From Aquificota bacterium (GTDB lineage: Bacteria; Aquificota; Aquificia; Aquificales; Hydrogenothermaceae): a DNA stretch of 64,000 nucleotides. The stretch is taken from positions 46,564-110,563 of the forward strand of contig JAADDZ010000009.1 of NCBI GenBank assembly GCA_013153635.1, given 5' to 3'. The notes under the pieces are model-generated. The model saw only the letters and a list, made by a program, of their open reading frames with translations. It did no database searches and was not told the origin of the DNA. Each line of letters begins with the position of its first letter. Within the stretch, counting starts at the first letter, position 1. The translations under genes were made by a program, and so were the position numbers. Below are positions 28,716 through 31,347 of this stretch, piece after piece.

Positions 28716-28743
28716 TTGACAATGAATATTTAAGATTTATACT
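28716..28743 (+). promoter_or_regulatory. Promoter of the unknown 230-residue protein
   Basis: TTGACA (28716-28721), a 16-base spacer and TATACT (28738-28743). A downstream TATAAT (28743-28748) overlaps but would give a 21-base spacer. Confidence 0.65.
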
Positions 28744-28788
28744 ATAATACAGAGCTAAGCGAAACAGATGATAATGGAGGGGTACACA

Positions 28789-29481
28789 GTGGATTTATAC
28801 CAGTTGAGAGAGTTACAGGCTATACACACTCTCGTATTTGAGACACTGGGACAACCAGAAAAAGAAAGAGAATTCAAACTAAAATCTCTAAAAAGATGGG
28901 GCTTTGACTTACTTTTTGGTAAAAAAGCTGGGAAAGCTACATTTTTCACTTGTGAATCTGGAAAACGAGAGAAAGGGGAAAAATACAAAGAAAATGATGT
29001 ACATTACGAAGTTGAAGAAATCATAAATGAACTTCCTAAAAACAAAAAGATATATGCCCACATAGAGATGATAAATGGACGAGCTTATCTAGTTGCTGAC
29101 CTAAGAGAAAGAGAAGAAAATATAGAGATTCTTCGTGTTCCTGCTGGGTCTATACTTCTTGCATACTTCAAAAAACACAGACTACATCACCTTATACAGT
29201 CCCTAAAAAATGTAGGTACTGCTTCAGAACTTGTAAAACAGAGAGGTCAAGAAGGTAAACCAGTACCTTACGAAAATCTTCCTAATGTAGCTAGAAGATT
29301 CCTAAGAGGAGCAAAAGATGTAGAAGAAAATGCAGGATTTGGGAGGGTTGCTCTTTCTTACTGGGGAGAAAACAAAGACAAAGATGCTAGATTTAGAGTA
29401 TCATGGTTATTACCTACTATTGCGCTTTTTGATATAAACATAGCAGAAAAAGCTGACAAGCTTCTTTCTGCTTTTAAATAG
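28789..29481 (+). CDS. Protein of unknown function upstream of the prefoldin genes
   Basis: A GTG at 28789 preceded by GGAGGGG (28776-28782) is the likely start, giving 230 residues. I do not recognise a family. The protein is soluble, Lys/Glu-rich and mixed alpha/beta. Visible blocks are [40 protein letters not shown], and an Arg-rich [11 protein letters not shown] segment. It has a consensus-like promoter of its own and is followed by a structured 240-base gap and two prefoldin-like genes. Whether it belongs to that chaperone set is open. Confidence 0.7.
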
Positions 29482-29721
29482 AGCTGGGGAGGTTTATTAG
29501 GGGATGCTTCTTCTCAGCTGTTCGCCTTTTATCTTTAGCCGGGGAGGATTTCCAACATACCAAAAAGGAAATCCGTTCCTCCCCGGAATAAAAACAGACA
29601 AAGACAATCGAAGTTTTGCATCTTCGTTTTATCAGCCTTTATTTAGTAATATAAAAATTTACAAAAATCTGTATTTTCTTTTAGAGAAAAAATTTATCTA
29701 AATAAAAAGGAGGGTACAAAA
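29482..29721 (+). other. Structured intergenic region before the prefoldin genes
   Basis: This gap holds two strong hairpins and no credible gene. The first pairs AGCTGGGGAG with CTTCTCAGCT. The second has an outer CCGGGGAGG / CCTCCCCGG stem and an inner ATTTCC / GGAAAT stem with a 3' bulge. Both 5' arms share the direct repeat GCYGGGGAGG. No U-run follows either hairpin, so they are not ordinary terminators. A regulatory leader, an mRNA-stabilising element or a small RNA is possible. Confidence 0.6.
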
Positions 29722-30162
29722 ATGGCAAAAAGAAAAACAAAGGACACACCAAAAGTATCTTTAGAGGAGCTAAACAGAGAGCTAAGAGGATACATAGCTC
29801 AAATAGAAGCTCTTAGAACAGAGATAGCCGCAATAGATACAGCGATTGCAGACCTACGAGCGGTAATAAAGACAATCAATAACATCAAAGACCTTGGAAA
29901 AGGTAAAAACATCTTGATTCCTATAGGAGCTATAGCCCAGATAGAAGCCAAGATAGAAGAACCAGATAAAGTAGTTGTCAGTATAGGAAACGGTATATCC
30001 GCAGAATTGAGTGTAGAAGAAGCTCTAGCTCAAATCGCCAAAGAAATAGCTACACTACAGGCTCTTAGAAGAGCTTTAGAAGAAGCGATAGTAGAAGCTT
30101 ATGCGAAAACAGAGGAGCTACTGGAGAAAACAAAGGCTTTAGGGGCAGAAGAAGGCAAATAA
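29722..30162 (+). CDS. Prefoldin alpha-like subunit
   Basis: A 146-residue coiled-coil protein with the alpha-prefoldin plan. Helix 1 covers about residues 12-52; four short strands follow (NILIPIG, IAQIEAKIEE, KVVVSIGNG, SAELS; about 72-102); helix 2 runs to about residue 142. The central VSIGNG turn and SVEEALAQIAKEI helix start are typical. Prefoldin is a jellyfish-shaped holdase of archaea and eukaryotes; finding it in a bacterial setting suggests transfer from archaea. The AAGGAGGG ribosome-binding site is strong. It sits 13 bases before a beta-like gene. Confidence 0.82.
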   Translation: MAKRKTKDTPKVSLEELNRELRGYIAQIEALRTEIAAIDTAIADLRAVIKTINNIKDLGKGKNILIPIGAIAQIEAKIEEPDKVVVSIGNGISAELSVEEALAQIAKEIATLQALRRALEEAIVEAYAKTEELLEKTKALGAEEGK

Positions 30163-30175
30163 GGAGGAAAATCTT

Positions 30176-30391
30176 ATGGAAGATAAAACCAAGGAGATAG
30201 AAGCTCTACAGACCTTAAAAAAAGAACTCGAAGATACCTTAAGTGTAGTTCAGGAGCTAGAAGGAGCAAGGAGGTTTTTTTACAATACAGGTACTATATG
30301 TATAGAGATGAACAAAGAGGAAATAATAGAGTTAGTTAAAACAGAAATAGAAGAAATAGAAAATATGATAAAAGAACTAGAAACCAAATAA
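30176..30391 (+). CDS. Miniature prefoldin beta-like subunit
   Basis: Only 71 residues, against about 115-120 for archaeal beta prefoldin. Two short helices (about 3-30 and 45-70) flank a single hairpin, RRFFYNTGTICIEMNKEEII, which resembles the beta-prefoldin hairpin and the start of its second helix. The tentacle coiled coils would be shortened by about half or more. It follows the alpha-like gene by 13 bases with AAGGAGG upstream, so the pair could form an alpha2-beta4-like complex with short arms. Function is inferred. Confidence 0.7.
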   Translation: MEDKTKEIEALQTLKKELEDTLSVVQELEGARRFFYNTGTICIEMNKEEIIELVKTEIEEIENMIKELETK

Positions 30392-30418
30392 AAATAAAAT
30401 AAAAGGAGGTCAGGCAGT

Positions 30419-31309
30419 ATGAAAAAAATACTTAGTATCTTAGTAGCAACCGTTTTATCTATATCAATATCATTTTCACAAAGCTCTGATAAAAGTCAAA
30501 CTACAGAGCAATTGATGGAAACAGCAGGGAAAAGAAGTGTAGAGAAAGTAAAGGCAGGAGAGATAGAGAAGGTAATCCAAGAAGCTTTAGCAGTTTTCCA
30601 AAAGTCCCAACAGCTCCTATTTCAGTTAACTCACAATCAGATAGACCAAGCTAAAAAAACTGTAAAAGAGATACAACAGAGATTGGAAAAACTAGACAAA
30701 CAGTACAAAGGAAAAATCGATAAACTCCCTATACAAGTAGTTATAATAGAAGTAGATGGTATAGATGACATAGAGTTAGCTGAAAAACTCAAGAAAGAAG
30801 CAAAAAAACTGTTAGAAGAAAATGATGTACCTTCTGCTAGAGATATACTAAATGCTCTTAGAAATGAGATAGTAATTGAAACTCACTATCTACCTTTAGA
30901 AATATACAAAGACACAATAGACCTTGTAGCTAAATTTTTAGAAAAAAATAATATTCCAAAAGCTGTAGAAGCATTGAATATAGCTTTAGGTACTATCGAA
31001 ATAGAGCAAACAATCATACCAAAACCTATCGCAGAAGCCGTATTGCTAGTACAAGATGCAAAAGCAATCTTCAAAGAAGATAAAAAATCAGCTCTACAAC
31101 TGTTAGAAGAGGCAAAAAGAAAACTAAAACTCGCAAAAGCTCTTGGTTATATAAGAACTGAAAAAGAGATAGAGCCTCTAATAAAAGAGATAGAAAAACT
31201 TGAAAAACAGATTAGAAAAGAAACTGCTGAAAAAGTTCTATTCGAAAGTCTAGAAAAGAAAATAAAACAGACTCAAGAAAAAGCTACAGAAACAAAACAA
31301 AGAAAATAA
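30419..31309 (+). CDS. YfdX family periplasmic protein
   Basis: A 296-residue protein. Residues 1-20 are a signal peptide (MKKILSILVATVLSISISFS). The rest is helical and matches YfdX: a first AL/KAG-rich helical region, LPIQVVIIEVDGIDD, ARDILNALRNEIVIETHYLPLEIYKDTIDLVAKFLEKN, then a final Lys/Glu coiled tail. Enterobacterial YfdX is acid- and stress-related with chaperone-like behaviour. The gene is 27 bases after the prefoldin-beta-like ORF with AAGGAGGT upstream, so a periplasmic chaperone is co-expressed with cytosolic prefoldins. Confidence 0.78.
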   Translation: MKKILSILVATVLSISISFSQSSDKSQTTEQLMETAGKRSVEKVKAGEIEKVIQEALAVFQKSQQLLFQLTHNQIDQAKKTVKEIQQRLEKLDKQYKGKIDKLPIQVVIIEVDGIDDIELAEKLKKEAKKLLEENDVPSARDILNALRNEIVIETHYLPLEIYKDTIDLVAKFLEKNNIPKAVEALNIALGTIEIEQTIIPKPIAEAVLLVQDAKAIFKEDKKSALQLLEEAKRKLKLAKALGYIRTEKEIEPLIKEIEKLEKQIRKETAEKVLFESLEKKIKQTQEKATETKQRK

Positions 31310-31325
31310 TCTGTAGCTTATCACT

Positions 31326-31347
31326 GGGGGGGTTATCCCCCTTTTTT
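31326..31347 (+). terminator. Terminator of the prefoldin-yfdX operon
   Basis: GGGGG (31328-31332), TTAT loop, CCCCC (31337-31341), then TTTTTT. It overlaps the 3' end of metF on the other strand by two bases. Confidence 0.85.

Follow-up and report, generated by a model that had tools for sequence, protein, structure and literature searches.

Organization of the locus

The window, i.e. the whole stretch of 64,000 nucleotides analysed here, comes from an Aquificota genome of Hydrogenothermaceae type (28 contigs, 96% complete). Among named relatives, it is closest to a Hydrogenothermaceae MAG (90% identity), followed by Persephonella MAGs (73-79%). Between a single conserved promoter and a single terminator, it carries genes for a UPF0128 protein, the remnant of a gene called c2, a prefoldin of the gamma type, a very small prefoldin beta (hereafter mini-beta) and a YfdX protein:

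28716-28743, + strand: sigma-70-type promoter of the operon, TTGACA-16-TATACT, 11 of 12 consensus bases, predicted from sequence
28768-29481, + strand: UPF0128/TIGR00703 family protein, 237 aa, putative first gene of the operon (Pfam 8.5e-96, TIGR00703 4.5e-96)
29504-29701, + strand: c2 remnant, a 65-aa ORF derived from a 240-aa stand-alone Csm5-fold gene (tblastn 8e-14)
29708-29714, + strand: ribosome-binding site AGGAGGG of the gamma-prefoldin gene, 7 bases ahead of the ATG
29722-30162, + strand: gamma-prefoldin orthologue (alpha-fold prefoldin), 146 aa (PDB 6vy1 7e-33, profile 2.5e-45, tree)
30162-30167, + strand: ribosome-binding site AGGAGG of the mini-beta gene, from sequence
30176-30391, + strand: mini prefoldin-beta, 71 aa, with 31 aa before the hairpin and 22 aa after it (PF01920; profile matches to 3aei and 2zdi)
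30404-30409, + strand: ribosome-binding site AGGAGG of the YfdX gene, from sequence
30419-31309, + strand: YfdX-family protein, 296 aa, signal-peptide-like N-terminus (PF10938 5.1e-21)
31326-31342, + strand: intrinsic terminator-like hairpin with T run, from sequence

The last three ORFs had been pointed out in a preliminary description as a prefoldin pair followed by YfdX, and they lie where it placed them, with AGGAGG-type ribosome-binding sites, a terminator-like hairpin and the short gaps that it gave: 13 bases (30163-30175) between gamma-prefoldin and mini-beta and 27 bases (30392-30418) between mini-beta and YfdX. The transcription unit is longer than these three genes. It most likely starts at 28768 with UPF0128 as its first gene, because the predicted promoter lies there and no comparable element was found in the window before the gamma-prefoldin gene. 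Indeed, a TTGACA/TTGATA-17/18-TATA-like element occurs at the equivalent place 5' of UPF0128 in all 17 loci inspected, which belong to two families. This promoter resembles a housekeeping promoter, and a search for the CIRCE heat-shock operator at the operon found none; heat induction of the Aquificota operon is therefore unsupported. A strong RNA hairpin (29538-29586; z -3.3 for 29530-29650) is also present inside the c2 remnant, upstream of the gamma-prefoldin gene, and is perhaps explained by complementary codons of the conserved GFP and GNP/GKP motifs.

A gamma-prefoldin in a bacterium

Profile searches, which the preliminary description had proposed as a check, find prefoldin similarity in both ORFs of the pair. 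The ORF 29722-30162 matches nearly full length both the Pfam family Prefoldin (PF02996; 1.4e-24, 86.8 bits for a cut-off of 23.2) and TIGR00293 (1.1e-27, 96.7 bits for a cut-off of 53.9). No other protein of the window genome matches PF02996; in a set of 14 well-known control genomes, the family is restricted to the four archaea.

This ORF had been taken for an alpha-type prefoldin. The alpha fold holds, but not the identity, since the top solved relative of the 146-aa protein in a single-sequence PDB search is 6vy1 (7e-33), true alpha subunits reaching 1.3e-9. The entry 6vy1, whose deposited name is 'Prefoldin subunit alpha 2' and which comprises 14 chains of one sequence, is presumably the gamma-prefoldin of the deep-sea archaeon Methanocaldococcus jannaschii, a protein said to have been first described in 2007 by Whitehead et al. 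A profile built from 18 Aquificota orthologues gives the same preference (6vy1 2.5e-45, archaeal alpha 1.8e-15). The window protein and 6vy1 align without gap, over both coils and the two assembly hairpins, with 65 of 129 residues identical (50%): 23/36 in the four-strand assembly region, i.e. the sheet that builds filaments, and 42/93 in the coils. Furthermore, gamma and alpha prefoldins form separate clades in a maximum-likelihood tree (support 98/96). Judged by sequence, profile and tree, the alpha-type ORF is thus an orthologue of the filament-forming gamma-prefoldin.

A trimmed prefoldin beta

The second ORF (30176-30391) matches Prefoldin_2 (PF01920) at 7.6e-7, with 29.5 bits for a gathering cut-off of 27.6, and all 15 aligned members of its family match PF01920 with an E-value of 0.01 or better. 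The presence of a prefoldin pair in a bacterium is therefore upheld. The very short coils that the preliminary description attributed to this beta-like subunit are borne out, but the protein is not a canonical beta, its score against the corresponding model TIGR02338 (gimC_beta) being 14.5 bits, below the curated cut-off of 73.

The mini-beta family profile matches PFD beta2 (3aei, 7.3e-8) and beta (2zdi, 4.3e-6), and its alignment to these solved betas runs from the last part of helix 1 through the hairpin into the first part of helix 2; in the canonical beta 2zdi (117 aa), this corresponds to residues 29-83 only. Prefoldin beta subunit 2 (3aei) is the nearest solved relative over this stretch but is larger (99 aa, as against 51-71 aa for most mini-betas), its coils being longer on either side. 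The hairpin is preceded by 19-31 residues (60-64 in genomes of the family called f2 below) and followed by 13-22 in 15/15 members. In the window protein, where the hairpin has 31 residues before it and 22 after it, the two long coiled-coil arms of canonical beta are absent. By sequence, the 71-aa protein is thus a trimmed prefoldin beta in which the assembly hairpin is kept and most of the client-binding coil length is lost, and the mini-betas are a family distinct from canonical prefoldin beta. Matches to polyubiquitin were also obtained with mini-beta in a single-sequence PDB search; they were rejected as an artefact of summed weak repeats, as they disappear in the profile search.

Distribution and gene order in Aquificota

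Whole-genome searches covered 136 Aquificota genomes and the 14 control genomes. Gamma-prefoldin is present in 47 of the 136, spread over five families (f1 to f5). An HMM detects mini-beta in 46 of these 47 genomes and in none of the 89 genomes devoid of gamma-prefoldin (Fisher p 1e-35, kinship ignored); in the 47th (G113), a mini-beta missed by the HMM was read by eye from the DNA directly after gamma-prefoldin. This association in 47/47 genomes suggests a situation unlike that of M. jannaschii, whose gamma-prefoldin does not interact with beta-type subunits. UPF0128 is found in 45/47 and c2 in 46/47 of the gamma-prefoldin genomes, counts that likewise ignore relatedness. DUF505 is found in 45/47 of them and also in 20 genomes without gamma-prefoldin, and YfdX in 31/47, being located elsewhere in the genome in several cases. 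Globally, the gene set is present or absent nearly as a whole, and several genera mix members with and without it.

The gamma-prefoldin and mini-beta genes are neighbours in f1, f3, f4 and f5. The order in f1 and f5 is UPF0128 - c2 - gamma - mini-beta, with YfdX (in some f1) and/or the membrane-associated c4 and c5 downstream of mini-beta; DUF1931 and UPF0114 also belong to the cluster of some f1 genomes. The f2 genomes (G001, G007) display the order gamma - c4 - c5 - UPF0128 - c2 - mini-beta - DUF505, and in f3 the loci are split, gamma-prefoldin and mini-beta being apart from c2 and YfdX. The genes flanking the cluster are ordinary and vary with the genus (MutS, EngA, carbamoyl-phosphate synthase and others).

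Several additional features of these loci deserve mention. The proteins c4 (~160 aa) and c5 (~188 aa) form a conserved membrane-associated pair without known family (L032:6679-7730, L067:5797-7243), often followed by DUF1931 and found too in genomes without gamma-prefoldin. DUF505 (650 aa) adjoins mini-beta or gamma-prefoldin in f2 and f4 (L049:2157-4127, L056:4264-6195, L066:2073-4004) and occurs, among the control genomes, in Thermotoga maritima and M. jannaschii only. Several f3 genomes carry two UPF0128 copies. In one Persephonella-type genome, an SMC-like protein that matches PADLOC mad3 is encoded just 3' of the cluster (L042:10756-12348).

A stand-alone protein with the Csm5 fold

In nearly all gamma-prefoldin Aquificota genomes, UPF0128 is adjoined by c2, which encodes a 240-aa protein belonging to no Pfam family (full copy, for example, L032:4262-4981). 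The AlphaFold2 model of this copy (pLDDT 72, pTM 0.73) retrieves, as the top twenty Foldseek matches, chains of the type III-A Csm complex, Csm5 (prob 1.00), and superposes on 6mur_F with a Z of 14.5 and 3.0 A over 222 residues (VIA-align). Comparison of the c2 profile with genuine Aquificota Csm5 by hhalign gives 97.8% and an E-value of 1.1e-12. The model of the type III-A CRISPR RAMP protein Csm5, TIGR01899, is matched by 4 of 16 c2 members (best E 1.7e-6), below its curated cut-off (17.8 versus 38.3 bits for the first member). The Csm5 fold of c2, predicted by modelling, is thus well supported. However, c2 is about 120-160 residues shorter than Csm5 and stands alone: in a scan of ten flanking genes at five loci, no cas gene was found.

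Only a remnant of c2 is present in the window. It matches the first ~44 residues of a relative's gene (tblastn 8e-14), the start being kept and the middle deleted, and probably retains the original stop also. No full-length c2 was found elsewhere in the window genome. Since c2 has decayed to a 65-aa ORF there, it is dispensable for the function of the remaining genes.

YfdX and the chaperonin context

The ORF 30419-31309 matches PF10938 at 5.1e-21 (75.7 bits for a cut-off of 26.6) over positions 6-146 of the 149 of the profile, and its N-terminus, MKKILSILVATVLSISISFSQ, looks by eye like a signal peptide. A secreted-type YfdX does lie downstream of the prefoldin pair, as first described, but its linkage to it is loose (31/47 genomes): YfdX is a looser member of the operon, UPF0128 and the Csm5-fold protein being the tight partners. 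YfdX proteins are ATP-independent periplasmic chaperones (PMC8407380). Here too, YfdX would probably act as a parallel chaperone of this kind, co-expressed from the gamma-prefoldin unit in some lineages.

The union of two cytosolic holdase subunits with a periplasmic YfdX had been noted as a system not known to be described in bacteria. It has a precedent, since the tLST heat-resistance island, or locus of heat resistance, encodes YfdX proteins (PscA/PscB) together with the cytosolic sHsp20 and ClpK (PMC8407380) and thereby offers a parallel for the joint operon of gamma-prefoldin and YfdX. The tLST differs in being a proteobacterial island that has sHsp and ClpK where the window operon has prefoldin; neither sHsp nor ClpK is encoded between the promoter and the terminator of the window unit.

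The window genome (96% complete) has a single Cpn60 gene, of GroEL type and located beside GroES, and no group II chaperonin. As its sole chaperonin is GroEL, the hand-off of clients to a thermosome, as known for prefoldin, cannot operate in this genome.

A probable cross-domain history

In a maximum-likelihood tree that includes one archaeal gamma sequence and has several long end branches, the M. jannaschii protein nests among the bacterial gamma-prefoldins, as sister to f3 (support 100/99). Its identity with f3 reaches 67% (for example L055:6823-7254 compared with 6vy1), and a tree forcing all bacterial gamma-prefoldins into one clade is rejected (p-AU 0.023). The place of the M. jannaschii protein inside the bacterial sequences indicates that the gene has probably moved between domains at least once, in a direction that a tree with a single archaeal gamma does not fix. 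As regards vehicles, IMG/VR and PLSDB were both searched for gamma-prefoldin and no match was found in either; nothing in these two databases thus points to carriage by phages or plasmids.

The patchy distribution (47/136 genomes) and this cross-domain sister relation are what would be expected if the locus were an inert or recent archaeal fragment, or an assembly contamination, without any role in bacteria. Such an origin is highly improbable, given that a single intact copy is found in many near-complete genomes with conserved gene order, promoter and ribosome-binding sites, and that the genes are conserved over five families amid ordinary neighbours varying by genus. Archaeal contamination in particular was rejected, the conserved loci being found in near-complete genomes of few contigs.

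A proposed capped holdase filament and its rivals

The gamma-prefoldin of M. jannaschii forms non-polar filaments that grow via beta-sheet interfaces, and an engineered mutant with one interface blocked caps them (PMC4895442). Its transcription increases 26-fold on lethal heat shock, the filaments form in cells and the protein binds neither alpha nor beta (PMC11117396). Its Aquificota relatives differ from it in occurring in bacteria that lack a group II chaperonin and in always being accompanied by mini-beta.

The reading that we favour, with a probability of about 50%, is that the Aquificota gamma-prefoldin assembles into a filamentous holdase, that mini-beta sets its ends or its length, and that its clients go to systems other than a thermosome. 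Gamma-prefoldin would polymerise via its two hairpins into brush-like filaments holding unfolding proteins; what speaks for such self-assembly here is how well the sheet region is conserved (23/36 identical). The hairpin of mini-beta would dock on the unpaired hairpin at the filament end, and growth would stop. The ratio of gamma-prefoldin to mini-beta would then set the length, with long capped filaments at one extreme and a small gamma/mini-beta oligomer at the other. The held clients would pass to GroEL/ES or other bacterial machines, since a group II chaperonin is absent from the genome. The action proposed for mini-beta, binding through one interface at the filament end and halting growth, is that of TERM, the engineered cap; however, TERM is a laboratory-mutated gamma subunit, whereas mini-beta, the candidate cap, is a natural beta-type subunit. 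One observation runs counter to a pure cap: in f2, mini-beta is encoded apart from gamma-prefoldin and has a long N-terminal helix that a cap would not need. Furthermore, capping would not be general if M. jannaschii has no mini-beta.

Adjacent alpha-fold and beta-fold genes are also the classical prefoldin arrangement. Like the canonical archaeal alpha2-beta4 prefoldin (1fxk, 2zdi), the window pair associates both folds, the mini-beta profile matches canonical beta over the hairpin, and the co-occurrence of the two proteins is universal (47/47). These features would fit a discrete hexamer of canonical layout, with two gamma and four mini-beta subunits, i.e. a jellyfish with two long-armed subunits and no filaments in cells. 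However, the partner is here a filament-type gamma, and mini-beta lacks most of the coil length by which canonical beta grips its clients. Compared with canonical prefoldin, moreover, the alpha-fold subunit is only ~29% identical to alpha and the window genome has no thermosome partner. The alpha2-beta4 assembly put forward in the preliminary description is not the default expectation, the M. jannaschii orthologue forming homopolymers without binding alpha or beta (PMC11117396), and we regard the hexamer as rather unlikely.

Another reading gives more weight to the neighbours. The almost perfect tracking of gamma-prefoldin by UPF0128 and the Csm5-fold protein, neither of which is a known chaperone, would be accounted for if gamma-prefoldin were a structural or scaffold filament (for instance for the Csm5-fold protein, UPF0128 or RNA) rather than mainly a holdase, mini-beta being an adaptor that recruits partners. 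M. jannaschii is, consistently, the sole carrier of UPF0128 among the 14 control genomes, and the Csm5 fold is well supported; for UPF0128, the AlphaFold2 model is too poor to be used (pLDDT 36). By contrast, the window genome has lost its Csm5-fold gene yet retains gamma-prefoldin, mini-beta and YfdX, and the genes lie at separate loci in f3. A mainly structural filament is quite unlikely in view of these cases.

The capped holdase filament can be extended to a more inclusive proposal, in which natural gamma-prefoldin filaments capped by a mini-prefoldin would be associated with an exapted CRISPR Csm5 protein and UPF0128, in a module transferred between Aquificota and Methanocaldococcus. Taken as a whole, this proposal is tentative and rather doubtful.

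Implications

Prefoldins have been stated to be absent from bacteria (PMC5635000, PMC5220055) and gamma-prefoldin has been called unique to M. jannaschii (PMC11117396). No discussion of bacterial gamma-prefoldin genes was found in the literature searched, which excluded the 2007 founding paper; the bacterial genes may be annotated in databases, as TIGR00293 recognises them. Contrary to the published absence, gamma-prefoldin is found in about a third of 136 genomes of the heat-loving Aquificota, always with a one-hairpin partner. That it is so closely linked to a stand-alone protein with the Csm5 fold was unexpected and offers a lead. If mini-beta is indeed a natural heat-stable cap, it would be useful for protein nanowire work, which now depends on an engineered cap. 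More largely, what limits the length of natural gamma-prefoldin filaments, and what role a prefoldin plays without group II chaperonin, become testable questions in these bacteria.
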